A stretch of DNA of 64,000 bases from the NCBI GenBank assembly GCA_003250355.1, contig QKGS01000057.1:1-64000 (forward strand). Reading direction: 5' to 3'. Shown here one piece after another: positions 30,383 to 48,173 of the stretch. Every line of letters begins with the position of its first letter. Positions within the stretch are counted from its first letter, which is position 1. The DNA is from Bacteroidota bacterium (GTDB lineage Bacteria; Bacteroidota; Bacteroidia; Bacteroidales; SZUA-534). The notes under the pieces are model-generated. The model ran no database searches and was not told the origin of the DNA. It saw only the letters and a list, made by a program, of their open reading frames with translations. A program made the translations under genes and the position numbers.

Positions 30383-30383
30383 C

Positions 30384-31175
30384 CTATTTTACTACTATAG
30401 TATCGCTCCATACAGCCGATGCCATAAAGTATCCCAAAGCTCCTGAAACATTCGACGGCGGATTCAACAAAGGTGCCTGAACATTGCCATACAAATTATC
30501 GACTTGCTTATTTAAACCTCTGAAATATTCATATATCTGCTCTGTAATAGAATGAACTTCAACAAGAACAGAATCGCCCGAATTAAATAATTCCGGAATT
30601 ACAAATTCCTGATTATTTTGAACACTAATATCTTCAAACAAGTAAATACTTGAATATGCTTGGCTCTTTACCCCATTAACAGTAAGTTCTACTTTATAGA
30701 AATACTTACTTTTGCTACCTTTCTCGCCATAAAGCACCACATACTCTCCATTCCCTTTTACCCCAATTAATTGACGTATACCTACACTATCGAACAAAGG
30801 AGGTTGCATAATATGATCGGCTGCTCTAATTGTTTTGCCATCATATTCTATATCAATATAGTATTCATTATCTACATTCCCCTGAATAGAAGATGCCATA
30901 TAATACCCATTCCCAATACCGGTCAACTGCTCTTCAAAACCGGTTTCATCGGCAATTACAACCTTAGCACTAACTATTGCTAACGAATTGTTCTCAAATT
31001 TAGGGCTAACAGATTTTGTTATTCGCACAAAATATGGTGGCTTCGCATTGGTAATTCGCCCTTCAACAACCAGTTCAGATTCACTATCTTCATATAAATA
31101 TGTATCGGTTGCCTCAAGACAACCATACCATACAGGAAGCATTACTACAAACAATATTCTACTTACAATTCTCAT
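30384..31175 (-). CDS. DUF4249 lipoprotein, partner of the TonB receptor
   Basis: This 263-residue protein starts at ATG 31175, which opens a lipoprotein signal (RIVSRILFVVMLPVWYGC, lipid Cys near residue 19); the longer frame to 31277 runs back into the receptor gene. It follows the DUF4249 pattern: ELVVEGRITNAKPPYFVRITKS, a beta-rich middle with DETGFEEQLTGIGNGYY, and a C-terminal YFMASAVWSDT. DUF4249 proteins in Bacteroidota sit next to TonB receptors as surface lipoproteins, possibly ligand-binding lids. The gap to the receptor stop is only 4 nt, so the two are co-transcribed. Confidence 0.9.
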   Translation of the reverse strand: MRIVSRILFVVMLPVWYGCLEATDTYLYEDSESELVVEGRITNAKPPYFVRITKSVSPKFENNSLAIVSAKVVIADETGFEEQLTGIGNGYYMASSIQGNVDNEYYIDIEYDGKTIRAADHIMQPPLFDSVGIRQLIGVKGNGEYVVLYGEKGSKSKYFYKVELTVNGVKSQAYSSIYLFEDISVQNNQEFVIPELFNSGDSVLVEVHSITEQIYEYFRGLNKQVDNLYGNVQAPLLNPPSNVSGALGYFMASAVWSDTIVVK

Positions 31176-31179
31176 AGTT

Positions 31180-33726
31180 CTAAAATTCAAATCGGTATGA
31201 AAACGAAGGGACAAATTGATATAAATAAAAATAACTTGGCGACAGTTTTGAATCAAGTATATTCCCATTGGCATCAACTACAGGTGAGTAATAATATACT
31301 CCCAATGGGTTTTTACGGAAGTACACATTATTTACTGAAAAACTCAGATAACTCTTCCATTTAGTTCTTTTATTATGCTTTGCTTCAAAATCGGCACTAA
31401 TATTTAAACTATGATATGTGGGCATTCGTTTAGTATTAATTTTCGATTCATCGAACGTAAGATACACTCTACCATCAATCTCATACTTGCCCGTAGCTGC
31501 CGTATATGGTAATCCTGTACCATATTTCCACATTGCGGCAACCTGCCAACGCTCCGAAAGCTGATAACTTGCCGTAATATTGAAGTTATTCCTTCGCACA
31601 TGCGATGCCGGATATGGCATATTATTATTCAATCCGTTTGTTAGCCACATAACTTTTGAAAAATCGAAAGTTGTAATAACATTTAATCTACTACCTGTAT
31701 ATGAAATAAATAACTCACTACCATAAGCCTCACCTTCTGATTTATATAAAAATTCTCCCGGCTTATCAACTGTAAGTATTCTCATATCTTGTAAGGTTTC
31801 TGTAAGATTATCCATATATCGGTAATACAGTTCTGTCGAAATATTTATAATATCATTAAAATTCTTACTTAATCCTAATGAATAATTATTACTTACCTGT
31901 GGCTTAAAGCCTTTGTTTGCAGGCATCCAACGATTTATAGCAATACCCATCGTACTCAATGGCAGCTGATGTAATGGCTGAACCGGTCTGCTGTAACTAC
32001 ACTTTATAAGCCAATCATTTTGAAAACTATATCCTATATGCAAATGAGGTTCTACAAAGAACTCCTCATAATATTCTTTATTTGAAAATACAGGGTTTGA
32101 TACAAAATACGAACCTCTTACACCTGCATTTATTGCAAATTGCTTAACAGGCAAAAAATGATGTATATAATATATGCTATTAATAAATTGTTGGTCAGGC
32201 ACCGATGTCAATCTGTCTTCATCGTCATTTTGGGTTTCATCAATTATAACATTGGGCAAAAAATGATAAAACACCGATGATACACCAAACTCAGCCTTTC
32301 CCTTATCGGAAATAAGATAACTGAAATCTTGTTTGAATTTCAAATTATTATTATCGGACTGCCAAACTAAATCAGACAAGCTCGATGATATTTCCCTGTT
32401 AGTAATATTTTTACTGAAAATAAGAGATGTGTTCATGAATACTGAACTATTAAAAATATGATTCCATCGCAATGAACCAACATACGTATTGCGCCATATT
32501 TCCTGAAACTGATCAAAAAAATCGTAACTATTGTACCCCGACAAATAAATACGGTTTTTATTATTTAACACATAGTTGAATTTTAGATTGGCATCGTAAA
32601 AATGGAATCGAATTTTACGGGTAACAGAATCGGAAATAAAATGAGGGTAAATATGATTCAAATACGACTGTCGGTACGAAAGCAGAACTGATGATTTATT
32701 GTTTACAACAGGCCCCTCTAACAATGCCCGAGCCGATATTAATCCTACACTCCCTTTAACTTTCCACTCTTCCTTATGTCCATCACGTAACCTAACATCA
32801 ATTAACGATGATAATGCTCCACCTTCACTTACCGGAATATCACTTTTATATACACTTACACTATTTACTACATCGGGATTAAAAACTGAGAAAAAACCAC
32901 CAAAATGGGAAGCATTATACAAGTTTGCTTCATCCATTAAAAATACTGTTTGATCGGTACTGCCTCCTCGTACAAATATACTGCCGGTAGACATTTCGTT
33001 GCTTTGAACACCCGGCATTAACGAAATATTCCTAATTGCATCTTTTTCACAAAACAATCCGGGTATTTGCTGAAGCTGCTTTATATCAATTTTTGCTTTA
33101 TGCATAATATCAGCTTCCAAAAAACGATCGTCTCTGCCTGCTTCTACTTTCACTTCGCCAACACTATACGACACCGGCTTCATATAGAATATCTGCTTTG
33201 TGTCTGAAAAAAGAGTTAAGTCAATTTCCTTATCGGTATATCCAATACATTTTAGCGTAAGCTTATGTTTTCCTTTTGGTAATTTTATAGTAAAATAACC
33301 GTAAGCATTAGTTACTGCTCCTACCCCATTATCAATATTATATAATGTTGCTCCTATTAACACTTCATTAGACCATTCCTCAATAATATACCCCGATAAG
33401 ATAACTTTTTGTTCCTTGATTTCAGTTGCATATATTACTACCTGACCTGCAATGTTTTTATAACCAAAGCCTAATTCTGAAAAATATTTATTCAATAACT
33501 CTTCTAATGTTCCTGAGTAATCGGAAATAAATGGAATTTTATCTTTAAAAAGAATATCATCGTTGTAAGAAAACAAAACTTTATACTTACGATTAATATA
33601 CTTTAATAAATCTTTTTGTGAGTATTCGCCTGCTTTTATGCTAATCTCAGTATCAAGAATATTGTTCTGTGCAGTAACAACAACGGCAAAAATACTAAAA
33701 AACACTATCAGAATACCTCTCAACAT
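31180..33726 (-). CDS. TonB-dependent receptor with N-terminal STN signalling domain
   Basis: This 848-residue outer-membrane receptor has a signal peptide (cleavage near VVTAQ), an STN/secretin-like domain (about residues 25-95, LEELLNKYFSELGFGYKNI), a carboxypeptidase-regulatory-like domain (about 105-190), and a plug (IPGLFCEKDAIRNISLMPGVQSNEMSTGSIFVRGGSTDQTVFLMDE). A 22-strand-type barrel then ends in the aromatic strand PSFSYRFEF. The STN domain normally contacts a FecR anti-sigma protein. It is co-transcribed with the DUF4249 gene. The substrate is unknown; iron complexes or peptides are possibilities. Confidence 0.95.
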   Translation of the reverse strand: MLRGILIVFFSIFAVVVTAQNNILDTEISIKAGEYSQKDLLKYINRKYKVLFSYNDDILFKDKIPFISDYSGTLEELLNKYFSELGFGYKNIAGQVVIYATEIKEQKVILSGYIIEEWSNEVLIGATLYNIDNGVGAVTNAYGYFTIKLPKGKHKLTLKCIGYTDKEIDLTLFSDTKQIFYMKPVSYSVGEVKVEAGRDDRFLEADIMHKAKIDIKQLQQIPGLFCEKDAIRNISLMPGVQSNEMSTGSIFVRGGSTDQTVFLMDEANLYNASHFGGFFSVFNPDVVNSVSVYKSDIPVSEGGALSSLIDVRLRDGHKEEWKVKGSVGLISARALLEGPVVNNKSSVLLSYRQSYLNHIYPHFISDSVTRKIRFHFYDANLKFNYVLNNKNRIYLSGYNSYDFFDQFQEIWRNTYVGSLRWNHIFNSSVFMNTSLIFSKNITNREISSSLSDLVWQSDNNNLKFKQDFSYLISDKGKAEFGVSSVFYHFLPNVIIDETQNDDEDRLTSVPDQQFINSIYYIHHFLPVKQFAINAGVRGSYFVSNPVFSNKEYYEEFFVEPHLHIGYSFQNDWLIKCSYSRPVQPLHQLPLSTMGIAINRWMPANKGFKPQVSNNYSLGLSKNFNDIINISTELYYRYMDNLTETLQDMRILTVDKPGEFLYKSEGEAYGSELFISYTGSRLNVITTFDFSKVMWLTNGLNNNMPYPASHVRRNNFNITASYQLSERWQVAAMWKYGTGLPYTAATGKYEIDGRVYLTFDESKINTKRMPTYHSLNISADFEAKHNKRTKWKSYLSFSVNNVYFRKNPLGVYYYSPVVDANGNILDSKLSPSYFYLYQFVPSFSYRFEF

Positions 33727-33814
33727 TATAAAATCAAAGTGTCATAGGTTAACATTAACTATAAACGCAAAACTATAAACAATATGATTTTTTTCAACTA
33801 TCCTGTTTAATAAA

Positions 33815-34945
33815 TTACGTAAACAATAGCATTTTACCTATTGTAAACCCTGCATTCTTTATTAATTGTGGGGCTTCATTTAATGCTTCTTCTAAATTCA
33901 TAGGCTTATCAATAATTGAATATATTAAATCAAATCCTGCGTTGTAGAGTTCTGTATAGTTATCGCCCAATGTGCCTGCAATAGCAATAACCGGCTTTCC
34001 AAACTTCTTAGCTGTATCAGCTACTCCTTTAGGGGTTTTCCCATATTTAGTCTGAAAATCAATTTTCCCTTCTCCGGTAATTACTATATCGCCCCATTTG
34101 CAATGGCTTGCCAATCCCGATTCTTCTATAACTATCTCTATACCACTTTTTAACTTGCCATTTGCAAAAGCAACAAAACCTGCACCTAACCCACCTGCAG
34201 CACCTGCTCCGGGAAGTTTTTCAACATCTTTATTCAAATACTGCTTTATCTTTTCTGCTAAATGATGCAAACCATTGTCAAGTTCTGCCACCATTTGAGC
34301 ATCAGCCCCTTTTTGTGGAGCGTAAACATAGGCGGCGCCATCTTTACCGGTTAACGGATTATTAACATCGCAAGCAATTATAAATTCAGTTTGGGCAATA
34401 CGTTTATCAACTTCTGACATATCTATTGTCTCAATTAATTGTAATTCGCCACCAACCGGATTTACTTCATCTCCTTTTTTATTCAAAAATCTATAACCAA
34501 TAGCCGATGCCATACCTATACCTCCATCATTTGTAGCACTACCTCCAATACAGCATATTATTCTATTATATCCCCTCTCTATAGCATCAATAACCAATTG
34601 TCCTGTACCATAAGTTGTAGTAAGCCACGGGTTTCTTTCATTTGCACTAAGCAATTCTATACCCGATGCGGTAGCCATTTCTATCACTGCAGTTTTGTTA
34701 TCACCCAAAACCCCATAATATGAATCGACATAATTAAATAAAGGCCCTTTAACTCTGCACTTTACAATTTTACCTCCGGTAGCTGCTACCATTGCCAGTA
34801 CTGTACCCTCACCTCCATCTCCCATAGGTATATTTCTCACTTCAAAATCAGGAGAAACTAATTTCAATCCCTCGGTTAAATACTCACCCACCTTAATACC
34901 CGACAAACAATCTTTAAAAGAATCTGATGCTATTAGTATTTTCAC
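33815..34945 (-). CDS. glxK: Glycerate kinase (GlxK/GarK family)
   Basis: This 376-residue kinase phosphorylates glycerate, feeding it into lower glycolysis. It begins MKILIASDSFKDCLSGIKVGEYLTEGL and has MGDGGEGT, GTGQLVIDAIERGY, CCIGGSATNDGGIGMASAIGYRF, GAAGGLGAGFVAF and ITGEGKIDFQTKYGKTPKGVA, all signatures of the type I (GarK) family. Length is normal. It is a single-gene unit, divergent from the PhoH-like gene. Confidence 0.96.
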   Translation of the reverse strand: MKILIASDSFKDCLSGIKVGEYLTEGLKLVSPDFEVRNIPMGDGGEGTVLAMVAATGGKIVKCRVKGPLFNYVDSYYGVLGDNKTAVIEMATASGIELLSANERNPWLTTTYGTGQLVIDAIERGYNRIICCIGGSATNDGGIGMASAIGYRFLNKKGDEVNPVGGELQLIETIDMSEVDKRIAQTEFIIACDVNNPLTGKDGAAYVYAPQKGADAQMVAELDNGLHHLAEKIKQYLNKDVEKLPGAGAAGGLGAGFVAFANGKLKSGIEIVIEESGLASHCKWGDIVITGEGKIDFQTKYGKTPKGVADTAKKFGKPVIAIAGTLGDNYTELYNAGFDLIYSIIDKPMNLEEALNEAPQLIKNAGFTIGKMLLFT

Positions 34946-35070
34946 TTGATTATATTTTTAATAAAACTAAGTTCAGTTATTAATTTAAAAATGCCAAATA
35001 CTCTAAGGTATATTGGTATAAAATCGTTATATTTAATATACTCTCATTTATTGTTAATAAATAAATGATG

Positions 35071-35097
35071 AAAGATTAAATTCCCGGTTTAATCTTT
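35071..35097. promoter_or_regulatory. Perfect 10-bp hairpin in the PhoH 5' region
   Basis: AAAGATTAAA (35071-35080) pairs with TTTAATCTTT (35088-35097) around the loop TTCCCGG. It ends 38 nt before the start codon at 35135, in the spacer between divergent genes. It may lie in the mRNA leader and affect its stability, or terminate a short transcript. Confidence 0.45.
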
Positions 35098-35134
35098 TAT
35101 AAATTGAGAATGTTTAACATTAAATTTTAAAGCC

Positions 35135-36466
35135 ATGGGTAAATCATCAGCAAAAATATTCATCCTTGATACAAATGTTCTTTTACACGATTTCAGTTGT
35201 ATCTACCATTTTCAAGACAATGATATTGTTATACCAATAGTAGCTCTTGAAGAACTTGACCATTTTAAAAAAGGTAACGACCAAATAAATTACAACGCAA
35301 GAGAGTTTACTCGCGAACTCGACAGTTTGGTTGGTAAAGAAATAACAAGCGATGGCATATCGCTGGGTGAAGGTCGCGGAAAATTATTTATAGCAACAGG
35401 TAAAGCTTTTTCACCTAAACTAAAGGAGTCGTTTGCCGAAAATACTGCTGACCACCGCATTTTAGCAATAGCCGACCATATTAGAAATGAGCATACTAAC
35501 AGAAAAGTTGTTTTAGTTACAAAAGATATAAACCTGAGAGTTAAGGCAAAGTCATTAAGCATAATTGCTGAAGATTATACCACCGACAAGGTTCAGGATA
35601 TGGATACAATTTTCAAAGGCTTTGAAACTATTGAAGATGTTGACATTGAACTTATAAATAAACTATATCAAGAATACGACGGAGTACCTGTTTCTGAATT
35701 TAATTTCAAACAAGAACTTATTGCCAATGAATATTTTATTTTAAAGTCGGGCAATAAGAGTGCTTTAGCTCATTTTAATTCAGAACAACAGACAATAACC
35801 CGAGTGGAAAAGAAAAGGACTTATGGAATAGAACCTCGAAATGCAGAACAGGCATTCTCTATGGATGCTATGCTAAGACCTGAAATATCGCTAATATCGC
35901 TAACAGGAAAGGCCGGCACAGGAAAAACTCTGCTTGCTCTTGCGTCGGCATTACAACAACACAGTATGTACGATCAAATATTCCTTGCTCGCCCAATAGT
36001 GCCTCTTGCTAACCGCGACCTTGGATTTCTGCCCGGCGATGCGAATGAAAAAATTGGTCCATATATGCTCCCATTATTTGATAATTTGGGAGTAATAAAA
36101 CACCAATTTGGTTCAAATAGCAAAGAGGTTATGCGCATAGAAGAAATGCTAAAAGATGAAAGACTTGTAATTACCCCTTTGGCATATATCAGAGGAAGAA
36201 GCTTATCGAACGTGTTTTTTATAATTGATGAGGCTCAAAACTTAACTCCTCATGAAATTAAAACTATAATTACGCGTGCAGGCGAAGGTACTAAAATGGT
36301 TTTTTGTGGTGATATTCACCAAATTGACTCTCCGTATCTCGATACTACATCGAACGGACTATCATATTTAACTGACAAACTAAAAGGTCAAAACCTGTTT
36401 GCTCACATAAACCTGGTAAAAGGTGAACGTAGCCAATTGGCTGAACTCGCAAGTGACTTATTGTAA
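35135..36466 (+). CDS. PIN domain-PhoH ATPase (PhoH2-type)
   Basis: This 443-residue protein joins an N-terminal PIN ribonuclease domain (about residues 8-150, FILDTNVLLHDF, EELDHFKKG, TADHRILAIADHI and VLVTKDINLRVKA) to a C-terminal PhoH ATPase. Walker A is GKAGTGKT near residue 258 and Walker B is VFFIIDEAQNLTPHE. The fusion is the PhoH2 type, described as a sequence-specific RNA unwinding and cleaving enzyme. PIN acidic residues are present (Asp10, Glu37 region, Asp in TKD). A hairpin sits in its 5' region and a strong terminator follows. Confidence 0.95.
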   Translation: MGKSSAKIFILDTNVLLHDFSCIYHFQDNDIVIPIVALEELDHFKKGNDQINYNAREFTRELDSLVGKEITSDGISLGEGRGKLFIATGKAFSPKLKESFAENTADHRILAIADHIRNEHTNRKVVLVTKDINLRVKAKSLSIIAEDYTTDKVQDMDTIFKGFETIEDVDIELINKLYQEYDGVPVSEFNFKQELIANEYFILKSGNKSALAHFNSEQQTITRVEKKRTYGIEPRNAEQAFSMDAMLRPEISLISLTGKAGTGKTLLALASALQQHSMYDQIFLARPIVPLANRDLGFLPGDANEKIGPYMLPLFDNLGVIKHQFGSNSKEVMRIEEMLKDERLVITPLAYIRGRSLSNVFFIIDEAQNLTPHEIKTIITRAGEGTKMVFCGDIHQIDSPYLDTTSNGLSYLTDKLKGQNLFAHINLVKGERSQLAELASDLL

Positions 36467-36490
36467 ATAAACAATACTTCTGAAATAATT

Positions 36491-36518
36491 AAAGCTGCTC
36501 GTAAAAGCAGCTTTTTTT
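36491..36518 (+). terminator. Intrinsic terminator behind the PhoH-like gene
   Basis: AAAGCTGC and GCAGCTTT form an 8-bp stem with an 8-nt loop, followed by a T tract. Confidence 0.85.
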
Positions 36519-36564
36519 GTTTTATGTTTTAATCAATTCTATTGATAAATGCGGCACATTTTAT

Positions 36565-36616
36565 TTTTATCTCTTTCTGAAATGAAGCATAGCGAAATGA
36601 AAGAAAGAGATAAAAG
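36565..36616. repeat. Perfect 14-bp inverted repeat upstream of cvfB-like gene
   Basis: TTTTATCTCTTTCT (36565-36578) and its exact complement AGAAAGAGATAAAA (36603-36616) flank 24 nt that contain GAAATGAA twice. It ends 17 nt before the -7 element of the next gene and follows a separate phoH terminator, so it is not needed as a terminator. An operator or a small repetitive element are the two obvious readings. Confidence 0.6.
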
Positions 36617-36633
36617 ACAAAACTTATTTTAAT

Positions 36634-36641
36634 ATCTTTGC
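36634..36641 (+). promoter_or_regulatory. -7 element TATCTTTG for the cvfB-like gene
   Basis: It is a perfect TAnnTTTG 15 nt before the ATG at 36657, implying a leader of under 10 nt. Confidence 0.5.
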
Positions 36642-36656
36642 ATTTTTAATAATAGT

Positions 36657-37487
36657 ATGGGACAAATAGGAAAATACAATACACTAAAAGTATCAAAAGA
36701 GGTTGATTTTGGGCTTTATCTTTACGATAATGAATATGGAGAAATACTTCTGCCTAAGTCGCAAGTTTCACCATTAACAAAAGTAGGCGATAATATTGAG
36801 GTATTTCTTTATAAAGATTCTGAAGACCGCTTAATTGCAACAAGTAAAGAACCTATTGCTACCGTTGATGAATTTGCTGTACTTAAAGTTAAAAGTGTTG
36901 ATAAAATAGGAGCCTGGCTCGAATGGGGCCTCGACAAAGACTTACTTGCGCCATTCCGTGAGCAAAAACAAGATATGGAAGCCGACAAAAGCTATTTGGT
37001 ATACATTTATCTCGATGACGAAAGCCAAAGAATTGTTGCTTCATCGAAACTCGACAAATACCTAAACAATACTCCTGCGGAATACGAGATAGGCCAAAAA
37101 GTAAATATTCTTATTAGTAACCAAACCGATATTGGCTACATTGCAATAATTAATAACACTCACTCCGGACTTATTTATAAAAATGAAGTGTTCCGGAAAC
37201 TTAGCCGAGGTCAAAAACTTGAAGCATATATTAAGAAGGTTCGAGATGACGATAAAATTGACCTGTCGCTGGAACCTGCCGGATACGAGAAAATTGATTC
37301 TTTTGCAAAAAGTATATTAACCGAACTTAAACAATCTGGTGGATTTTTACCTTTGAACGATAAAAGCCAACCAGACGATATTTATAATGCATTCAAAACC
37401 AGCAAAAAGAACTTCAAAAAAGCAATTGGTTCACTTTACAAGGAAAAACTTATTGCAATTGAAGAAAAAGGAATTAGGTTAATTTAG
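36657..37487 (+). CDS. CvfB-like S1-domain RNA-binding protein
   Basis: This 276-residue protein matches the CvfB/YitL layout: three S1-type OB folds (about residues 1-65, 70-135, 140-205) and a C-terminal winged helix (about 215-276, FKTSKKNFKKAIGSLYKEKLIAIEEKGIRLI). Start and end match the family (IGKYNTLKVSKEVDFGLYLYDNEYGEILLPK). CvfB of Staphylococcus influences virulence gene expression through RNA binding; the role here is unknown. It is a single-gene unit with a very short leader and a strong terminator. Confidence 0.92.
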   Translation: MGQIGKYNTLKVSKEVDFGLYLYDNEYGEILLPKSQVSPLTKVGDNIEVFLYKDSEDRLIATSKEPIATVDEFAVLKVKSVDKIGAWLEWGLDKDLLAPFREQKQDMEADKSYLVYIYLDDESQRIVASSKLDKYLNNTPAEYEIGQKVNILISNQTDIGYIAIINNTHSGLIYKNEVFRKLSRGQKLEAYIKKVRDDDKIDLSLEPAGYEKIDSFAKSILTELKQSGGFLPLNDKSQPDDIYNAFKTSKKNFKKAIGSLYKEKLIAIEEKGIRLI

Positions 37488-37519
37488 AATGAATATCATT
37501 TTGAAAAATAAATAAAAAT

Positions 37520-37553
37520 GGCTGTTTCAATATTCTGAGACAGCCTTTTTTTT
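37520..37553. terminator. Terminator behind the cvfB-like gene
   Basis: GGCTGTTTCA (37520-37529) and TGAGACAGCC (37536-37545) form a 10-bp stem with one G-U pair, followed by a T tract. It separates convergent cvfB-like and lysA genes. Confidence 0.85.
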
Positions 37554-37563
37554 TACAATATTA

Positions 37564-38706
37564 TTATTTACTGTAATATGCTTTCACTCTACTACGCAAA
37601 TTATATTCACTAACCATAACTTCGCCATATGCTCCCGCACTTCTAATGGCTATTAAATCACCTCGTTTAGTTTCCGGCAGCTGTATAGCTTTTCCAAAAC
37701 AATCACTCGATTCACAAATAGGCCCTACTACATCGTATTTTTTAACAGGCAATTCCGATGAAATATTTTCAATTTTATGCTGAGCCTGATAAAGTGCCGG
37801 TCTAATTAACTCGGTCATTCCTGCGTCTACAATTGCAAAATCGGTATTTTTACCGTTTTTCACATACAATACTTTTGTAATAAGCGAACCACACTGTCCA
37901 ACAATAGAACGCCCCAACTCAAAATGCAAACTTTGCTTTGGTCGTAATTCAAGCATTTCGGCAAATAATTTAAAGTATTCTGCAAAATTGGGCATTGGCT
38001 CTTTATCGGGGTTAGTATAATCAATACCTAAACCACCACCAACATTAATATGATCAACAATTATTTGTCGAGCATAAAACCATTGTTGCAATTCATTAAC
38101 CCTCACGCAAAGACCCTTAAACGACTTTAAATCAGTAATTTGAGAGCCAATATGAAAATGCAACCCTATAAGCTTAACAAAATCAAGTTTAGCTAAAGCT
38201 TCAAGTACATTTTCCATATCCCACATATTAATACCAAACTTATTTTCGGCCAAACCGGTGGTAATATATTTATGAGTGGAAGCATCAACATTAGGATTAA
38301 TTCTCAACGCTACATTTGCAATTTTACCTTCCTTCTGAGCAAGCTCATTTATAACTTCAAGCTCTGGTATTGACTCTACATTAAAGCAAAAAATATCATT
38401 CCGCAATGCATTAGTTATCTCATCGTCAGACTTGCCAACTCCTGCATATACTATTTTATCAGATGCAAAGCCTGCTTCAACCGAACGTGCTACTTCATTT
38501 CCACTAACACAATCAGCACCAAAGCCATAACTATGTATTTTCTTTAATATATCAATATTTGCATTAGCTTTTACGGCATAATGTACATTAAAACCATACC
38601 TGTCCGATTCTCGCTTTACTACATCAAGAGTGTTCTCCAAAAGCTGCATATCGTACCAGTAAAATGGTGTTTTAACTGCCGGAAGCACATTTATATCTAT
38701 AGACAT
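37564..38706 (-). CDS. lysA: Diaminopimelate decarboxylase
   Basis: This 380-residue PLP enzyme catalyses the last step of lysine synthesis. The PLP lysine is in NVHYAVKANAN (about residue 47). LGLHFHIGSQITD, HINVGGGLGID, LHFELGRSIVGQCG and PICESSDCFGK give the phosphate site, Gly loop and catalytic Cys. The C-terminal IRSAGAYGEVMVSEYNLR is typical. It lies 11 nt behind lysC, so both form an operon under the leader described at 40112-40171. The rest of the DAP pathway is not in this window. Confidence 0.97.
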   Translation of the reverse strand: MSIDINVLPAVKTPFYWYDMQLLENTLDVVKRESDRYGFNVHYAVKANANIDILKKIHSYGFGADCVSGNEVARSVEAGFASDKIVYAGVGKSDDEITNALRNDIFCFNVESIPELEVINELAQKEGKIANVALRINPNVDASTHKYITTGLAENKFGINMWDMENVLEALAKLDFVKLIGLHFHIGSQITDLKSFKGLCVRVNELQQWFYARQIIVDHINVGGGLGIDYTNPDKEPMPNFAEYFKLFAEMLELRPKQSLHFELGRSIVGQCGSLITKVLYVKNGKNTDFAIVDAGMTELIRPALYQAQHKIENISSELPVKKYDVVGPICESSDCFGKAIQLPETKRGDLIAIRSAGAYGEVMVSEYNLRSRVKAYYSK

Positions 38707-38717
38707 TTTTAGTTCTA

Positions 38718-40034
38718 TTAGTCGTTAAACAATCCTTTGCTCAATGCTACCAAAGCTTCTTTTTTGTCTTTTGCATTTACAAGCATTGATATATTATGAT
38801 TACTACCTCCATATGAAATCATTCTCAAAGGTATATTCTCTAAGGCTTTAAATACTTTTGCAGCAACACCTTTACTCTCGGCAATTAAGTCGCCAACAAT
38901 ACACACTATAACCTGATCGGTATCTACTGTTACCGTTCCATAATTTCCAAGATCTTCAACTATTTCCATAAGTCTTGAAGTATCATCAATAGTAACCGAA
39001 ACACCTACCTCACTTGTTGTAATCATATCGATAGATGTTTTGTATGTTTCAAATATTTCAAATACTTTACGTAAGAAACCATGAGCCATTAACATACGCC
39101 CCGACTTAATTTTAATGGCTGTAATACCATCTTTTGCGGCAATTGCCTTTACTGTTTCCTTCTTTTGGTTTCCCGAAATAAGTGTACCGTAAGCTTCCGG
39201 GTCAAGAGTATTCTTAATTCTTACAGGAATATTCTCTCTTTTGGCCGGCAAAACACAAGTTGGATGTAAAATTTTCGCTCCAAAATATGCAAGTTCGGCA
39301 GCTTCGTCGAACGAAAGTTCAGCTATGGCATGAGTATCTTCAACAACACGCGGGTCGTTTGTATGCACTCCGTCAATATCTGTCCATATCTGAATTTCTT
39401 TAACCATTAGTGCCGCACCTATAATTGAAGCAGAATAATCGGAACCACCTCGCTTTAAATTATCAATCATTCCATTTGCATTTCTACAAATGTATCCCTG
39501 AGTAATAAACAATGGCACATCAGTATGTTCATTTATTAACTTGGTCAGATTCTCCTTTATGTAATTATCATCAGGTTCGCCGAACTTAGTTGTACGCATA
39601 AAATCAAGAGCCGATAATAGTACCGACTTTATTCCTGATTCTTCAAGATGATATTGCATAAAAGCAGTGCTTACCATTTCACCCTGAGCAAGAATCTCTT
39701 TCTCCTCATATTGGGTAAACATATCGAGTGTAAATGAGCGAATATGATTTATATGATTTTTAACTAATTCGGCACCTTTCTTCTTATATTCTTCGGTATT
39801 GAACAATTCTTCAACCGTAACAAGAAACTTAGCTTCTAATGCAGAAATTTTCTTATTAGCACCTTCACTATCCTTCTTGTAAAGATATTCTGAAATTTCT
39901 ACTAACGCATTAGTAGTACCCGACATAGCTGACAGTACAACAAAATTTCTGTTACCATCATTTATAAGCTTTGCCACTTCTTTAATACGCTCAGCACTAC
40001 CTACCGATGTGCCTCCAAATTTTAATACGTACAC
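38718..40034 (-). CDS. lysC: Aspartate kinase (monofunctional)
   Basis: This 438-residue enzyme makes aspartyl phosphate, the first step to lysine, threonine and methionine. I place the start at GTG 40034 (MYVLKFGGTSVGSAERI), which matches the family. The in-frame ATG at 40079 lies in the loop of an intrinsic terminator and would add FFFNN-type residues, so it is an unlikely start. Kinase motifs KFGGTSVG, RGGSDYSASIIGAAL and WTDIDGVHTNDPR are intact. Two ACT regulatory domains follow (about residues 290-435, MITTSEVGVSVTID and MISYGGSNHNISMLV). No homoserine dehydrogenase domain is fused. lysA follows 11 nt later. Confidence 0.95.
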   Translation of the reverse strand: MYVLKFGGTSVGSAERIKEVAKLINDGNRNFVVLSAMSGTTNALVEISEYLYKKDSEGANKKISALEAKFLVTVEELFNTEEYKKKGAELVKNHINHIRSFTLDMFTQYEEKEILAQGEMVSTAFMQYHLEESGIKSVLLSALDFMRTTKFGEPDDNYIKENLTKLINEHTDVPLFITQGYICRNANGMIDNLKRGGSDYSASIIGAALMVKEIQIWTDIDGVHTNDPRVVEDTHAIAELSFDEAAELAYFGAKILHPTCVLPAKRENIPVRIKNTLDPEAYGTLISGNQKKETVKAIAAKDGITAIKIKSGRMLMAHGFLRKVFEIFETYKTSIDMITTSEVGVSVTIDDTSRLMEIVEDLGNYGTVTVDTDQVIVCIVGDLIAESKGVAAKVFKALENIPLRMISYGGSNHNISMLVNAKDKKEALVALSKGLFND

Positions 40035-40055
40035 AGTTAAAAGTTTTAAATTATT

Positions 40056-40086
40056 AAAAAAAAAGCCGGAAACTTTCATTCCCGGC
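40056..40086 (-). terminator. Intrinsic terminator in the lysC leader (attenuator)
   Basis: On the minus strand GCCGGGAA (40086-40079) pairs with TTTCCGGC (40072-40065) over 8 positions, with one G-U pair, around a 6-nt loop, followed by nine T residues (40064-40056). It ends 22 nt before the lysC GTG start. There is no gene upstream that needs it, since murF has its own hairpin, so it fits attenuation of lysC-lysA. Confidence 0.85.
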
Positions 40087-40111
40087 CATGTAATATTATT
40101 TCATATAACAA

Positions 40112-40171
40112 TTAGGGAAGCTGAATATTCACCTTCTTTACCTTCATCTTATATGTTTTTGTTTTCATCAT
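40112..40171 (-). CDS. lysC leader peptide, Lys-rich (19 codons)
   Basis: The minus strand from ATG 40171 to TAA 40112-40114 encodes MMKTKTYKMKVKKVNIQLP. Six of 19 residues are lysine (AAA twice, AAG four times), with two threonines and three methionines, so all three products of the aspartate pathway appear. A second ATG at 40168 may be the start. It lies directly downstream of a consensus promoter and 25 nt before the terminator at 40086. The CTTCCC at the end of the frame (40120-40115) can pair with GGGAA of the terminator stem, giving a simple antiterminator of 5 bp. The pattern is that of a transcription attenuator. Confidence 0.75.
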   Translation of the reverse strand: MMKTKTYKMKVKKVNIQLP

Positions 40172-40181
40172 AATTTCGCAC

Positions 40182-40211
40182 CAAAAATAATTACTTTTTT
40201 TTATATACAAA
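40182..40211 (-). promoter_or_regulatory. Consensus promoter of the lysC leader
   Basis: TTTG (40211-40208) and TATTTTTG (40189-40182) are separated by 18 nt, a full match to TTTG-N(about 19)-TAnnTTTG. Start of transcription would be near 40175, so the leader peptide begins within about 5 nt of the RNA end. Confidence 0.7.
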
Positions 40212-40282
40212 TACCTAATAATATTTTTTATCTCATTGTTTTAGAAAAATAACTGTATAACATAAAATAAATCAGGTTATTC

Positions 40283-40313
40283 TTTGGAAAATAACTCATT
40301 AGTACTATATTTG
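40283..40313 (+). promoter_or_regulatory. Orphan consensus promoter, plus strand
   Basis: TTTG (40283-40286), a 19-nt spacer and TATATTTG (40306-40313) match the Bacteroidota housekeeping promoter exactly. No annotated gene lies downstream on this strand; murF is antisense. A short hairpin RNA follows. Confidence 0.6.
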
Positions 40314-40319
40314 GATATG

Positions 40320-40393
40320 CGACATTTTTGTCGTCATGGTTTTAAGGGTTAATAATACATACGGAAGGGCAACCTTCCGTTTATGTTTAATTA
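40320..40393 (+). ncRNA. Candidate small RNA of about 70 nt between murF and lysC
   Basis: The predicted transcript begins with a hairpin (CGACA-TTTT-TGTCG, 40320-40333), continues through an AU-rich linker and ends with a perfect 8-bp hairpin with a GCAA tetraloop (ACGGAAGG/CCTTCCGT, 40361-40380) and a T-rich tail. It follows the orphan consensus promoter by 6 nt. A small ORF inside (ATG 40336, about 28 codons) is weak. No known RNA family was recognised. Prediction only; the second hairpin may instead serve murF. Confidence 0.45.
40361..40380. terminator. Perfect 8-bp hairpin behind murF
   Basis: ACGGAAGG-GCAA-CCTTCCGT lies 10 bp past the murF stop on the minus strand and has a more T-rich tail on the plus strand. 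It may terminate both murF and the candidate small RNA. Confidence 0.55.
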
Positions 40394-41713
40394 AAGATAA
40401 GCTATTGCATTCTCCAGTTTAATACCTCGCGACCCTTTAATAAGTATATTGTAACCTTTATATTTCTTTTTCGATAAATGTTCAACAAGTTCCTCGGAAG
40501 AATTAAAAAACAACGCCCTATCGTTCTTCAACTCTGCAAAACGAGTCCCAACAAAAATACATTGCTCGGCTCCTGAATTTAAAGCTTGCTCTAATATAAT
40601 ATTATGCTCCGGCTGTTCTACATATCCCAATTCAAGCATATCGCCCAAAATCAACATCTTTGGTGTAAACAACTGTTTTGAAAAACTATCAACCGATACT
40701 TTCATAGAAGTAGGATTAGCATTATAACCATCCATTATCACTTTATTATTTACTGTTTCAATAACCTGCGACCTATTATTATTTGGCACGTAATTTTCTA
40801 TTGCTTCTACAATCTTATCCTTATCTATCCCAAAATTATATCCTACGGCAATTGCTGCCAAAATATTCTCAAAATTATAATCGCCTACCAACTTTGAGTT
40901 TATTTCAACATCAATATCCGATAAGTGATCCTCGTCGTGTTTATCGTGATAATGCCATAATACACTCACATAACTTGATGAATTATTTATCAGTTTCCCC
41001 TGACAATGAGTAAAACCTCTTGTTCCATAATAAATAATACTATGCGGAGGTCTCATTTCTTCAAGGTTTTCATTGTCATAGTTTACAAATGCTAAGCCAT
41101 CGTTTTCATACAAGTAATTATATAATTCAGCCTTTGCCTTTTTTACACCATCAAAAGAACCAAATCCTTCAAGGTGTGCTTTACCTACATTTGTTATTAT
41201 GCCAAAATCAGGAGCTGCAATCTTACACAACTCCGCAATTTCGCCTATATGATTTGCCCCCATTTCTATTACAGCAAAATTATGCTCTTTAGTAACACTA
41301 AGCAGTGTTAATGGAACCCCAATATGATTATTAAGATTTCCCTGTGTATATGCAACATTATACTTCTTTGACAATACTGAAGCAACAAGCTCTTTTGTAG
41401 TTGTTTTCCCATTGGTACCGGTAATTGCTAAAACCGGTATTCCTAATCGTTTTCTATGATATCCGGCAAGACGCTGAAGCATATTCAATGTATCATTTAC
41501 TAAAATATAACGTTCATCAGCAACTACCGACGAGTCGTCAACTACTGCATATGCACATTTCTCCAAAGCCTTTTGGGCATACTTATTACCATCGAAATTA
41601 TCGCCTTTTAATGCAAAAAATATTGACCCCTCTTCGGCCTTTCTACTATCGATACAAATTTTATTATATTCCTTAAACAAGGAATATAATTCGGAAGTGT
41701 TTACCTTATTCAT
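40391..41713 (-). CDS. murF: UDP-N-acetylmuramoyl-tripeptide--D-alanyl-D-alanine ligase
   Basis: This 440-residue ligase adds D-Ala-D-Ala to the UDP-MurNAc-tripeptide, the last cytoplasmic step of the muropeptide. Start at ATG 41713 gives MNKVNTSELYSLFKEYNK; the longer frame to 41737 would run through the terminator of the gene in front. It has the N-terminal substrate domain (CIDSRKAEEGSIFFALKG), the ATP loop ITGTNGKTTTKELV, MGANHIGEIAELC with the metal-binding Glu, VGDYNFENILAAIA and MDGYNANPTSM. Length is normal. It follows gldJ, after a terminator at 41725-41748. Confidence 0.96.
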   Translation of the reverse strand: MNKVNTSELYSLFKEYNKICIDSRKAEEGSIFFALKGDNFDGNKYAQKALEKCAYAVVDDSSVVADERYILVNDTLNMLQRLAGYHRKRLGIPVLAITGTNGKTTTKELVASVLSKKYNVAYTQGNLNNHIGVPLTLLSVTKEHNFAVIEMGANHIGEIAELCKIAAPDFGIITNVGKAHLEGFGSFDGVKKAKAELYNYLYENDGLAFVNYDNENLEEMRPPHSIIYYGTRGFTHCQGKLINNSSSYVSVLWHYHDKHDEDHLSDIDVEINSKLVGDYNFENILAAIAVGYNFGIDKDKIVEAIENYVPNNNRSQVIETVNNKVIMDGYNANPTSMKVSVDSFSKQLFTPKMLILGDMLELGYVEQPEHNIILEQALNSGAEQCIFVGTRFAELKNDRALFFNSSEELVEHLSKKKYKGYNILIKGSRGIKLENAIAYL

Positions 41714-41724
41714 ACATCTATAAA

Positions 41725-41748
41725 AAAAGCCCCACAATAGGGGCTTTT
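41725..41748. terminator. Intrinsic terminator between gldJ and murF
   Basis: AAAAGCCCC and GGGGCTTTT form a 9-bp stem with a 6-nt loop and A/T tracts on both sides. It separates gldJ and murF transcripts, although read-through could link them. Confidence 0.8.
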
Positions 41749-41767
41749 ATATTTTATGTGAGTTTTT

Positions 41768-43252
41768 TTAATGTCCTCTTGAGTCTCCAACACGTATCAT
41801 AGCACAACGGAAACCTAAATCATCTCTACTATCTTCTTCATCTAAGAATCTTCGTGTTCCTGCTCCCATCCAGTAAGTTCTATCTCTCCAAGAACCACCT
41901 TTATATACTCTTGAATGGTCAGTTACTAGCGATGTCATTGTTCCATCGTTTCTGTCGCGACCTGAATTATACATACGCTTAGAGCCGCTCTCTCGCGATG
42001 CATCCTCGTTGCTATAATCTAAACTTGATTCAAAATCACCATCAAGATAGTTTATATTGTCAGAAGTTGAATAGTTAAAACGATCTATTACTTCCTCATC
42101 TTTCACCTCTCTGTATCGTAAACGACCTAAACTATCTTTTTCTGCAACATTACCTTCTTCGTCGCGAACAAGAGTTTTGAATACATTACCACGGAATGGT
42201 CTGAATTCATCGACATCGGCATGACTTAAAGCACGATATACGTCAAGAACCCACTCATTAACATTACCTGCCATACAGTATAAGCCATAATCGTTAGGCC
42301 AGTAAGCATGAACCGGTGCAGTAATATCTGCATTATCGTTAAGAGCACCGGCAACCCCCATCATATCACCTAACCCACGAACGTTGTTGGCTACAATCAT
42401 CCCTTTTTGTCCCTGATTAGGGTTTCTGATACCATCACCTGTCCAAGGATAAATTCTACGCTGATAAACACGCTCATCAACCGATGTTCCAATTAATGCA
42501 AGTGCAGCATATTCCCACTCTGCTTCTGTTGGGAGACGATACTTTGGTAACAAAATACCATCTTCCATTCTAACTTTTCTAAAATCTTTATTTGGATCTA
42601 AATCGGGAATTTCTTCTCCAACTGCACCTTCGTACTGATGAGCTAAATATGCTTCGGTATTAAAGTTTTGATCTCCCATTTGGTTGGGATCCGGCAATAG
42701 AATACCTTTATCAATAAGAATAATTTCATTTACACGGTCGGTACGCCATTGGGTAAAGTCTACAGCCTGACGCCAGTTTACACCAACAACGGGATACTCC
42801 GAATATGCCGGGTGACGGAAATAATATTCAACTAAAGGCTCGTTATAAGCCAGCTTTCTGCGCCATACCAATGTATCGGGCAATGCCTTGCGATAAACCT
42901 CGGGATAATCGATAAACACACGACTAATCCAATATAAATATTCACGATAATCAACGTTTCGAACCTCTGTTTCATCCATATAAAATGATGATACGGTTAC
43001 GTTTCTTGGAACATTATTCCAGTCGTACATTACATCTTGTTCTGTACGCCCCATAGTGAAACTACCACCTTCAACAAATACAAGCCCGGGACCTGTTTCC
43101 TGCTCATAAAAATCGCCCCAATATTCAAAACCTCCAAAATCAGGGTTGTTGTATTCCCATCCGGTTGTCTGAGATGTAGGCGTTGAACATGATGAAACGC
43201 AAACTCCTACTATAGAAATAATTGCGCCTAATGATAATGTTCTGATATTCAT
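41768..43252 (-). CDS. gldJ: Gliding motility/T9SS lipoprotein GldJ (SUMF1-like)
   Basis: This 494-residue lipoprotein has a signal with lipobox VSSC (Cys22) and a formylglycine-generating-enzyme-like (SUMF1) fold: VEGGSFTMGRTEQDVMYDWNN, SFYMDETEVRNVDYREYLYW, YPVVGVNWRQAVDF, KYRLPTEAEWEYAA, AGNVNEWVLDVYR and KGGSWRDRTYWM. The start TGWEYNNPDFGGFEYW and QETGPGLVFVEGG identify GldJ rather than GldK/PorK. GldJ stabilises other gliding and T9SS parts in Flavobacterium. Its neighbours here are sprF-like, porU and porV, which supports the T9SS role. Confidence 0.92.
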   Translation of the reverse strand: MNIRTLSLGAIISIVGVCVSSCSTPTSQTTGWEYNNPDFGGFEYWGDFYEQETGPGLVFVEGGSFTMGRTEQDVMYDWNNVPRNVTVSSFYMDETEVRNVDYREYLYWISRVFIDYPEVYRKALPDTLVWRRKLAYNEPLVEYYFRHPAYSEYPVVGVNWRQAVDFTQWRTDRVNEIILIDKGILLPDPNQMGDQNFNTEAYLAHQYEGAVGEEIPDLDPNKDFRKVRMEDGILLPKYRLPTEAEWEYAALALIGTSVDERVYQRRIYPWTGDGIRNPNQGQKGMIVANNVRGLGDMMGVAGALNDNADITAPVHAYWPNDYGLYCMAGNVNEWVLDVYRALSHADVDEFRPFRGNVFKTLVRDEEGNVAEKDSLGRLRYREVKDEEVIDRFNYSTSDNINYLDGDFESSLDYSNEDASRESGSKRMYNSGRDRNDGTMTSLVTDHSRVYKGGSWRDRTYWMGAGTRRFLDEEDSRDDLGFRCAMIRVGDSRGH

Positions 43253-43319
43253 AATAGTCTTATTTAGTCAATACACTTTAATAACTACAAATATAAAAAA
43301 ATATTACTTGAATCATCAT

Positions 43320-44291
43320 TTATTGTAAAAAAGTAGGGCTTTTTATATTTTTTTTTCCTCCCTTATTCTTTTTATTCCATACCACAGTATATGACAATTC
43401 ATGTGAAGCCATTGGTAAAAACTCACGCTTACCTATGCTCATGTCATAACTATACGTAATTTTATAATTATTGGTTTTAAAACCTAATGAAAAAATAACA
43501 GCATCGAAATCGGGGTTTAAGTTGTGCCTTAACCATACGCCTCCCAATATTTTATTGTACTGAAAATTTGCACCCCAATTTACAAGACTTTGAACACCTG
43601 AAATTTGAATTACCAAATTAGGAGACAATATACGTTGCTGTTTAATCAGTCTCGCGTCAAATTCTTTTAAAAAACCAATATGGGCAGTATATTTCCTGTT
43701 TAAACAAAATACTTCGGAATGCTTCGGATTAAAAATATGATCAACACTAACACCTCCATATAAATATCTGTAAAAGAAAACTGTACCTATGGCAAAATCG
43801 GGGTATGTATTCAATGAACCTAAAGGAATATATTCATATTCTTCAAAATTATACTCACCTCCGTTTCTGTATCGTTGAACGACCCCCGCCTGCAATGCAA
43901 AACTTATAAAAAAATTATGCGTTATCGATGTTTGATATGAATAAGCAAAATCTACCGACGGTAAATTCAACGTACCGGCAACATCGCTTGATAATATAAC
44001 CCCTGCACCACCATTTAATTTTGGAAAATAAGAATCGTAAACCGCCCCATAACACTGATAACCCGACTGCGAAGTTGTCCATTGGTTTCTGTAAAATGAA
44101 TTGAACCTATTTCCTTCATGTACACCCACATATGCCGGATTTAGAAAAACCATATTGGAATAAAACTGCGACAATGCAATATCCTGAGCATTAGCACATA
44201 TACTAACAATAGTTAATAAATATAATGCCGTTATCTTTTTAATATGAAATGATAAAATTATTTTTGTGAAATTATAAATATAACTCAACAT
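43320..44291 (-). CDS. PorP/SprF family type IX secretion membrane protein
   Basis: This 323-residue protein has an N-terminal signal (cleavage after ICANAQ) and starts with the conserved DIALSQFYSNMVFLNPAYVGVHEGNRFNSFYRNQW of PorP/SprF. The rest is an outer-membrane beta-barrel. It lies between gldJ and the divergent porU gene, so it is probably the PorP-like member of this T9SS locus rather than a cargo-specific SprF. The start at 44291 gives a long N-terminus; the internal start MKKI-like region is not clear, so the exact start is uncertain. Confidence 0.93.
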   Translation of the reverse strand: MLSYIYNFTKIILSFHIKKITALYLLTIVSICANAQDIALSQFYSNMVFLNPAYVGVHEGNRFNSFYRNQWTTSQSGYQCYGAVYDSYFPKLNGGAGVILSSDVAGTLNLPSVDFAYSYQTSITHNFFISFALQAGVVQRYRNGGEYNFEEYEYIPLGSLNTYPDFAIGTVFFYRYLYGGVSVDHIFNPKHSEVFCLNRKYTAHIGFLKEFDARLIKQQRILSPNLVIQISGVQSLVNWGANFQYNKILGGVWLRHNLNPDFDAVIFSLGFKTNNYKITYSYDMSIGKREFLPMASHELSYTVVWNKKNKGGKKNIKSPTFLQ

Positions 44292-44378
44292 ATGATTTTA
44301 TTAAACACAATATTGATATATGTGTTATAGTTATATACTAAGTAACGTAGTTATTTAAGAAAACATATATTCGCAACA

Positions 44379-47300
44379 ATGATAAAATATTTCAAAGCCA
44401 TCCTAGCTCTCTGCATCTCTTTATCTTTTTCTTCAATTTATGCAGATACAATACAAATAAACAAAGAAATAGAGTGGCAACATTACAATTCATTAATAGA
44501 AATTGATAATGACAACAATTATCCGTTTGTGAGCTTTATTATTCAAAAGAACATTAATAACATTGATTATTACAAATATACAGAATGCAAATATTTACCG
44601 GCATCAAGCGAAGAGCAAAGTAAATACAAAAGCTTGAAAAACATTAATCTTCAAGAACTAAATATTAAACAATATACAGTAAGAAAAGAAAATGTAATTG
44701 AAATTTCACTCAACCCATTCAGGCTTAACCCAACAACCGGGCAATTGGAGAAGATGCACGAGTTTTCGGTTGATATTGTAACCAAGAAGATAAATAAAAA
44801 AACAAAATCATACACATACCCCGATAATTCCCTATTATCGACCGGCGACTGGTTTAAAATCAGAGTTGATACTACAGGGATTTTTAAACTAACCTACGAA
44901 GATTTAATTTCAATAGGTATTTCCAACCCTGAAAATATAAGAGTATTTGGATATGGAGGAAAACAACTATCATACATTAATGAGGCTGAGTTTTATGATG
45001 ATATGCATGAGAACCCTATATTCATGAGCAAAGGTGATGATGGCATTTTTAATTCGGGCGATTATATATTATTTTTTGGCGAACATACAACCACATGGTA
45101 TTATGATGAGGCATACAAAATGTTTATGCACAACATACATAATTATGCAACACATAGTTTGTATTATCTGACTTCGAGCTTGGGTGCAGGCAAAAGAATT
45201 GAAACTGCACTAGCTGTTAGCGAAAATGAAAACTACACCACCGATACTACCGACACATATTTTACTCATGAAAAGAATTTATTTAACCCTATACAATCGG
45301 GCAGAACCTGGTTTGGAGAAAAACTTGAACGAAATAGTATGTATAATTTCTCTTTCTTTTCTCCAAATGTAATTCCGAATGCGATTTCAAAATTTGCTGT
45401 TCAGTTTGCAAACCAATCATCAACAGCATCGGAAATAGATATTTACATAAACGACAATATTAATGATAATATAAATTTCAGAACAGGGGCTGTTAGTTAC
45501 AGGTGGGGATATATGTATGAAAAACGACTTGCCTTTACTACAAATAATAACACAAACAGCATTGGTTTAAAATACACCAGCAGCAGTTATACTTCGGAAT
45601 GCTACTTAGGTTATGTATGTATGAATACACGAGAGTGGATTTCACTAAATAACTCCCCACAACTAATGTTTCGCGACATTAGTACGGTTGCTCCCGGGCG
45701 TATTACAAAATTCAATATCAGAAACTCGTCAACAAATACTATTGTATGGGATATAACCAATGCTACCGAACCTAAAATAATACAAACAGAGACTAATGGA
45801 GATATAACAAGTTTTAAGTATGAAACATCGGAACTAAAGGAATTTATTGCTTTTAACCAAAGTTCGTATTTCAAACCGTTTTTTTATAGCAATAATAAAG
45901 ACAGAGTAGCAAATCAAAACCTTCATGCAATTAATAATATTGATTACTTAATAGTAACCAACCCGCTATTCATTGATTTTGCTAACGAAATTGCAGATTT
46001 ACACAGAACAAAAGATGGCATGAATGTATTGGTAACAACTCCTGATTTAATATATAACGAATTTTCATCGGGTATGCCTGATGTTAGTGCAATCAGGAAT
46101 TTTTCGAAAATGCTTTATAATAAATCGTCTAATTACAAATACCTGCTTTTATATGGTGATGGTTCATTTGATAACAGACAAAATGTAGCAGGCAACAGTA
46201 ATATGATTCTTACATACCAATCGAAAGAATCGTTATATGAGTTATACAGTTTTACTTCCGATGACTATTACGGCTTACTTGATGAAGGCGAAGGAGAGAA
46301 TTTAGGAAAAATTGACATTGGAATAGGCAGACTACCTGTTCGCACAAAGGCTGATGCCAGAATATTGAATGACAAAATACTATCGTACTCTTCCGGAATA
46401 AACACCGGCAACTGGAATAATAATATATGCTTTGTAGGCGACGATAGCGACGGCAATATTCATATGGCGCAACCCAATGAAATAAGCGAATGGCTATATA
46501 ACAACAAACCAACATACAATGTAAACAAAATATTTTTCGATGCATATCCGCGTATAACAACACCAAGTGGTTTTAGGTATCCTAATGTAACAGAAGCTAT
46601 AAACGATGCTGTTAAAAAAGGGGCTTTAATAATTGACTATGTTGGACATGGTAATAAAAGAAAATTAGCTCACGAAGAAGTTTTGACCGAAACAGAAGTA
46701 AATTCATGGAAAAATTACGACAAACTGAGCATATTTGTAACTGCAAGTTGCGAGGTAGGCCGATTCGACAATTACACAATTACATCGCTTGGAGAATCGT
46801 TCATATTGGCTCCACACGGCGGAGGTGTTGCTGCACTTACCACTACCAGGGTTGTTTACAGTGGCGAAAACCATACCTTGAATACCAATTTTATGCATAA
46901 TGCGTTGAATCCCGAATACAAGCTTGGCGATGTATTGCGACTTGCAAAAAACAATACTTCCGGAGATATTAACAAAAGAAACTTCACTCTTTTGGGTGAT
47001 CCGGCCATGAAACTTGCCGTTCCCGAGCTGAAAGCAAAAATTGAATATATCAACAACTATTATATAACCAATGACTTTAGCCCGGTTGACACACTAAATG
47101 CTTTATCGAAAGCTGTTGTTGCCGGTATTATTACCGACAGGAACGATTCGAAAATAGGAAATACCAACGGAACCATAAATATTACTATTTACGACAAACG
47201 TGACAGTATAGTTTGCTATGGACACACCGATCCTGCATTTTCATTTAAAATGCAAGACAAAATACTATACAACGGACAAGCAAGTGTAAAAAATGGAGAA

Positions 47301-48107: not shown

Positions 48108-48173
48108 TAATAAAAATTAAAAAAATCGGTTTGTTATTTTAAATTCGCATTTTTTAAAAATTTAAAACTAAGT

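Follow-up and report, generated by a model that had tools for sequence, protein, structure and literature searches.

Why is the gene pair lysC-lysA of this Bacteroidota genome preceded by a short frame crowded with lysine codons and by a terminator, both lying between a promoter and the first gene? On the strength of the sequence elements described below, we consider the region a probable classical ribosome-mediated transcription attenuator that senses lysine via Lys-tRNA, and we put the probability of this reading at roughly 0.86. The window, by which we mean the whole stretch of 64,000 nt that was analysed, carries the locus on its minus strand with the following features, given in the direction of transcription:

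40391-41737, minus strand: murF (NCBIfam), the upstream neighbour of the leader
40182..40211, minus strand: promoter, TTTG (40211-40208), N18, then TATTTTTG (40189-40182)
40112..40171, minus strand: leader peptide frame, 19 codons, MMKTKTYKMKVKKVNIQLP and stop, with the same position and Lys richness in relatives
40102..40155, minus strand: possible protector or pause stem, CATATAA (40155-40149) with TTATATG (40108-40102), from the minimum-energy fold of the full leader, window only
40115..40119, minus strand: 5' strand of the antiterminator, TTCCC, within the final two codons of the leader frame
40079..40083, minus strand: 3' strand of the antiterminator, GGGAA, shared with the 5' arm of the terminator
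40056..40086, minus strand: intrinsic terminator, GCCGGGAA (40086-40079)/TTTCCGGC (40072-40065) and T9 (40064-40056), with covariation in the family alignment
38718..40034, minus strand: lysC, monofunctional aspartate kinase, GTG start, 438 aa (NCBIfam TIGR00657, 319 bits against a cut-off of 208.7)
37564..38706, minus strand: lysA, diaminopimelate decarboxylase, the next gene on the same strand (NCBIfam TIGR01048, 407 bits against a cut-off of 297.9)

The leader frame reads ATG ATG AAA ACA AAA ACA TAT AAG ATG AAG GTA AAG AAG GTG AAT ATT CAG CTT CCC TAA and contains six Lys, two Thr and three Met among its 19 codons. It begins 10 nt past the promoter box, which is of the Bacteroidota sigma type, and 25 nt separate it from the terminator, whose stem contains one G-U pair and which is the first minus-strand entry in the terminator list for 30000-49999. 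The 7-bp stem CATATAA/TTATATG encloses the later Lys codons together with the antiterminator strand. The original prediction had named the promoter, the 19-codon frame, the 8-bp terminator with nine T residues and the GTG start of lysC, and all of these are borne out with coordinates right within one base; the distance from terminator to GTG, given there as 22 nt, is 21 nt by count from the T run, and the leader stop lies 77 nt from lysC. The same prediction had excluded the ATG at 40079, which sits in the terminator loop, as the start of lysC. The family alignment backs this exclusion, with GTG at the start position in eight of nine members (ATG in the ninth) and an ATG inside the terminator loop in no other row, and the start of lysC is likely to be GTG 40034 rather than ATG 40079 on this comparison. 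Elsewhere in the window, an open frame of 2453 residues (5104-12465, minus strand) carries what we take to be repeats resembling carboxypeptidase and PKD motifs, with a putative sorting signal at its C-terminus.

We propose that RNA polymerase would start a few nucleotides upstream of the leader frame with a ribosome following it. When charged tRNA-Lys is scarce the ribosome would stall on the Lys codons, leaving TTCCC free to pair with GGGAA of the nascent terminator arm, and this pairing would block the terminator and allow lysC-lysA to be transcribed. When lysine is plentiful the ribosome would reach the stop codon and cover TTCCC, the terminator would fold and transcription would end about 21 nt before lysC. 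We infer that the leader frame is translated, that the ribosome stalls on Lys and that termination is regulated. The geometry of this proposal was explored by folding calculations with Lys13 in the ribosomal A site and the ribosome edge 13 nt onward, this distance being the footprint of the ribosome ahead of that site. With the ribosome at Lys13, the predicted fold of the window forms TTCCC-GGGAA around a small AU-rich stem (-9.3 kcal/mol), and with the ribosome at the stop codon the terminator is free to form. The value for upstream pairing of arm 3 is 0.48 with the ribosome at Lys13, 0.01 with the ribosome at the stop and 0.20 without a ribosome. Thus, the predicted fold contains the TTCCC/GGGAA antiterminator that had been proposed from the two complementary strands while the ribosome occupies the last Lys codon, and no longer contains it once the ribosome is at the stop.

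Within the window the promoter pattern alone is without significance (5 matches against 3.4 expected), and so is the pairing strength of the antiterminator, whose core is 5 bp (p=0.16 against shuffled leaders). The combination of a Lys-rich frame with a strong terminator occurs four times in the window and once in total across 20 shuffled windows; the other three cases in the window are found where coding genes end, and two of these belong to the same gene. The significance of the locus therefore comes from conservation in relatives and not from the window alone.

In order to follow this conservation, 20 genomes of the family of the window were surveyed. A promoter, a leader region and a hairpin precede lysC in nine of them, which belong to six genera of the family, and a clearly Lys-rich frame is found in seven of these nine, with five to eight Lys per 19-28 residues. 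The promoter box TANNTTTG with a TTG element 18-19 nt ahead of it is present in 9/9, and the leader frame starts 9-18 nt past the box, or 38 nt past it in the decayed L006. One of the remaining two leaders (L102, genome G006) has three Lys in 31 residues. The other (L006, genome G005) is decayed, the first ATG after the promoter box meeting a stop two codons later, and its terminator is without a long T run; that frame and T tail were lost together is as predicted if the two function jointly. The other eleven genomes of the family form a single genus, the seventh (g7), and none of its ten readable upstream regions has a Lys-rich frame. Alongside this, a hairpin with a T tail (GTTGGG..CGCCCGGC) without a Lys-rich frame was observed before lysC in g7 (L090-L098, L101). 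The alignment of related lysC upstream regions, which had been suggested as a check of the locus, therefore finds the frame and the hairpin conserved, and the proposal was not refuted by non-conservation. The conservation extends over the promoter, the Lys frame, the antiterminator strand, the terminator and the order lysC-lysA, and it fails in one decayed member and in one genus without the frame. At the level of sequence, the parts, their order, their conservation, their complementarity and the geometry in the window are shown.

The pairing of the two alternative structures was examined in the same alignment, in which L006 and L102 were also included. The antiterminator strand of the family, CCCTGA or similar, lies at or next to the leader stop and pairs with TCAGGG of the terminator arm; the register of the window is shifted by one base, TTCCC pairing with GGGAA. 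The cells of this helix are 92% paired, and shifting the partner by one to three columns leaves no more than 54% of them paired; the column-shuffle control is without significance (75-110/500), the strand hardly varying. The terminator of the family shows seven cells with two-sided changes (0/500 shuffles as high) at four of nine pairs (9/500), and no two-sided changes are found in slid versions. One particular G is paired with U in the terminator but with C in the antiterminator in eight of the nine rows, and such an arrangement would tilt the balance towards the antiterminator. A possible 1:2 protector in the family has 65% of its cells paired with covariation no better than in slid versions, and the window has the different 7-bp stem mentioned above. 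A small hairpin within the leader frame (AACAGATT/AATCTGTT in L003; also in L087, L089 and L102) was seen to keep pairing despite base changes in some relatives; it is 67% paired in the family, with covariation of 43/500, and a role as RNA polymerase pause site is possible.

The survey was extended with LysC searches at strict cut-offs over 294 genomes of the order (111 matched) and 395 of the class (156 matched), so that it covers the genomes with a LysC match, the other 183/294 and 239/395 having none under the cut-off. Beyond the listed loci, loci were taken at 60 of 83 places in the order and at 40 of 126 in the class, picked to spread over families, and the best 80 of 171 relatives (named contigs) and the families of three matches were also included. 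After regions below 200 nt and exact copies had been dropped, 244 regions upstream of lysC were usable, among them at least five pairs that count twice (L171/L200, L186/L207, L179/L231, L188/L232 and L143/L213) because distances were taken from codon 2 or codon 1 of lysC, the query having begun at codon 2. A fixed criterion was applied, namely a frame of 9-50 codons with at least four Lys and at least 15% Lys, followed within 60 nt by a terminator lying at most 110 nt from lysC. Such an arrangement is present in 20/244 regions (17 distinct), in 0/244 reverse complements and in 5/2440 shuffles. Four leaders below the criterion (L006, L102, L188 and L190) were added by eye to give the set of 21 leaders, and TANNTTTG is found upstream of 19/21 leader frames at 8-38 nt (all but one at 21 nt or less), compared with 205/4200 shuffled stretches.

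Five other families of the order, and one Vicingaceae contig (L030), have versions of the leader that differ from it. In the family f99 the leaders (MKKMKKYNKQKK...) are present in six of the eight genomes with a lysC match, L198 having none and the region of L199 being truncated. Of the two f49 genomes, one has a leader and the other (L206) is without it. Further matches to the criterion come from f80, f89 and the Vicingaceae contig, and L188 (f80) and L190 (f24) have the same build with a lower share of Lys. Among the regions read from Flavobacteriales, Muribaculaceae, Prevotellaceae and other members of the class, no Lys leader by the criterion was found except L030. In every listed attenuator locus the next gene after lysC is lysA, and the same is true of 136/146 other entries (a few of them second copies); the gene order is thus general and the attenuator is not. 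A single origin of the leaders was considered and rejected, as a tree of 144 LysC proteins (FastTree, with long branches and L102 absent) needs six label changes, at least five of them forced by starred branches. The leaders of f80 and f24 (L179/L231, L188/L232 and L190/L273) were observed to have 39-44 codons rich in Met, Thr and Lys and antiterminators of 7-8 bp.

The 2:3 helix of f99 is 82% paired, compared with at most 58% in slid versions, and three of its pairs are changed on both sides; in column shuffles it is without significance (two-sided pairs 41/500, other measures 71-442/500). In f80 a two-sided change is seen, with CTGCAGGC/GCCTGCAG in one genome and CTGTAGGC/GCCTACAG in the other. 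When the best duplex is compared with that of shuffled whole leaders, p<0.05 is reached in 11/21 leaders, all within f1, f99, f80 and f24, with f49 and f89 being weak, and the best duplexes of L186 (p 0.73) and L192 (p 0.38) are not convincing as antiterminators; the group medians combined over seven groups give P=2.6e-4. Swapping leaders and terminators across groups is marginal (896/20000, P about 0.045), the 42-nt segment used having missed the antiterminator of L190.

A clear drop in upstream pairing from the Lys stall to the stop is predicted in 10/21 leaders (window, L003, L006, L087, L102, L030 and L202-L205), while L004, L005, L007, L089, L171, L201, L186 and L192 give a partial or small contrast, and f80 and f24 (L179, L188 and L190) give none or one at a low level. 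In these last leaders a ribosome at the last Lys codon would itself cover the antiterminator strand, whereas a stall further upstream, at Thr, Met and Lys codons, would leave the strand uncovered. Thus, by this geometry the f80 and f24 families may read more than lysine.

The peptide itself offers the first alternative, in which the nascent leader peptide would arrest the ribosome, as in TnaC, with free lysine or a Pro-stop holding the ribosome at the stop codon. Pro is the final residue in five of the nine family peptides, and several family peptides have KQI..KSV..KK in common, as such an arrest could entail. However, pairing with GGG of the terminator accounts for the terminal CCC, the peptides of f99, f80, f24, f49, f89 and L030 are without a terminal Pro, and the groups have Lys runs in common but no fixed peptide, so we regard arrest by the peptide as improbable.

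A slightly smaller chance is given to the hairpin constitutively ending a transcript that comes from upstream or from the antisense strand, with the Lys frame arising by chance in A-rich DNA and the promoter of lysC lying further downstream. The AT-richness of the leader, the fact that a Lys-rich frame beside a terminator is not very rare (four in the window) and the presence of the g7 hairpin without a Lys frame would fit this explanation. Yet only 21 nt are left between the T run and the GTG, promoter boxes stand upstream of the frame in all nine family members, and murF has a hairpin of its own at 40380-40361, albeit with a weak T tail. The Lys enrichment and the order of the elements are also recurrent, which a plain terminator leaves unexplained. 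The enrichment was measured in a way that is blind to Lys. A terminator close to lysC is present in 55 regions; 25 of these lacked a TANNTTTG before the terminator and were dropped, and in the others the frame was read from the first ATG after the last such box. Repeats were dropped and the g7 rows gave no frame of nine residues. The 19 ORFs of at least nine residues thus obtained contain 108/444 Lys (24%), compared with 27/366 (7%) in 17 control ORFs after TANNTTTG in regions without a terminator, and 18 of the 19 are leaders described here, the remaining one being L061. In the chosen leaders, a set picked partly for Lys and with L201 omitted, Lys makes up 22.7% in frame compared with 9.7% and 10.8% in the other frames.

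The attenuator reading also has to be set against control of the terminator by a lysine riboswitch (L-box), a T-box or an unknown aptamer. The L-box controls lysC by lysine, its aptamer sensing free lysine without ribosomes. For Shewanella, lysC is listed among the L-box targets (PMC2659441). At this locus the best Rfam match below the cut-offs is a weak one to the L20 leader family, with 24.9 bits and an E of 0.0064 when 311 bases are searched. This match lies far under the gathering score of 58.7, the downstream gene is lysC, and we take it as a terminator-like resemblance; moreover, coding sequence takes up half of the leader, which is short. No match above gathering was found at the leader in Rfam (Thr, His and Trp leaders, T-box and RF00168), and the L-box family RF00168 has none in the window or in the 149 genomes of the order that were searched (0/149), with filters that can lose weak matches; the control search gave matches in 4/14 genomes, which are E. 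coli, B. subtilis, T. maritima and L. lactis. A sensor of this kind is therefore very unlikely. An action of the frame on the translation of lysC, by re-initiation or start masking with the hairpin being secondary, is the least credible of all, since 77 nt and a U-tailed terminator separate the leader stop from lysC and L006 lost frame and T tail together, even though such action has been proposed for upstream frames in many phyla, with a Bacteroidetes peak at 11-14 bp from the gene (PMC4833913).

Other genes related to this pathway were looked at in the family. A leader of the lysC type before dapA was found in none of the ten loci inspected out of 20 dapA loci, dapA closely following another gene, and control thus sits on lysC-lysA in this family as far as the inspected loci go. 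A Thr-rich leader ending TTTTTP and stop was read by eye before thrA in the genome of the window (L002, contig C30 of G000), and its stop codon falls within a hairpin formed by CCCCCTAGGGGG. Comparable Thr runs, together with hairpins of the C-run/G-run type, occur in several relatives (L103-L107), and some relatives also have a GTTGTG further downstream with the potential to pair with the Thr codons. Since no T run comes after the thrA hairpin, this leader differs from the lysC one in not being an attenuator with an intrinsic terminator.

The trp, his, thr, ilv and phe leader-peptide attenuators represent classical ribosome-mediated attenuation in Proteobacteria. The lysC leader resembles them in having a frame of cognate codons, a terminator before the gene, an antiterminator near the end of the frame and a logic in which the stall frees the strand; it differs from them in the amino acid, which is lysine, in the Bacteroidota host, in the short antiterminator, in the frame placed 10 nt from the promoter box and in the lack of an Rfam match above gathering. 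The features of an attenuator found here are a cognate-codon frame, a terminator between frame and first gene, a mutually exclusive antiterminator and its predicted codon-dependent freeing and covering, with the limits that the antiterminator is weak in the window and unconvincing in L186 and L192, and that freeing and covering do not hold in f80 and f24 for the last Lys codon. The mechanism itself is textbook, and what sets this case apart is the amino acid (lysine) and the phylum (Bacteroidota).

Leader peptide systems were earlier known only in Proteobacteria and Actinobacteria, Firmicutes then being added, according to PMC2965389. For Actinobacteria, the account in PMC1262725 gives no conserved RNA structures upstream of lysine operons and names the L-box for lysine. 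Within the phylum of the window, strong clues for leader-peptide attenuation before amino-acid operons are described in F. psychrophilum, the main text, supplement aside, naming neither lysine nor threonine (PMC9723704), and leader-peptide attenuation is proposed in B. thetaiotaomicron before a gene of unknown function, lysine and threonine again being unnamed in the main text (PMC7366714). A further likeness is SEP5 of Sinorhizobium meliloti, a short 5'-UTR frame with a cluster of Thr and Lys codons that was proposed as a leader peptide and whose downstream gene is tied by the authors to threonine and lysine synthesis. SEP5 differs in its six Thr and three Lys codons, in the gene, which is that of an aspartate dehydrogenase, and in being conserved only in Sinorhizobium, and the passages on it mention no terminator (PMC10117765). 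PMC1273637 names lysA, but the motif that it gives belongs to speF. The full-text literature searched, which leaves most subscription journals outside its reach, contained no described example of a lysine-specific leader-peptide attenuator.

On a broader scale, the sequences leave the odds about even that several Bacteroidales lineages independently built Lys-tRNA leader attenuators before lysC-lysA, in sampled genomes without a lysine riboswitch, and that the Lys/Thr/Met leaders of f80 and f24 read several end products of the aspartate pathway. A lysine attenuator would fill a gap among the amino acids sensed by leader peptides, and it would place a different sensor on the same gene, lysC, in another lineage than that of the L-box. 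Furthermore, since the mechanism needs ribosome and polymerase in step, the locus would provide a direct test of ribosome-polymerase coupling in Bacteroidota.
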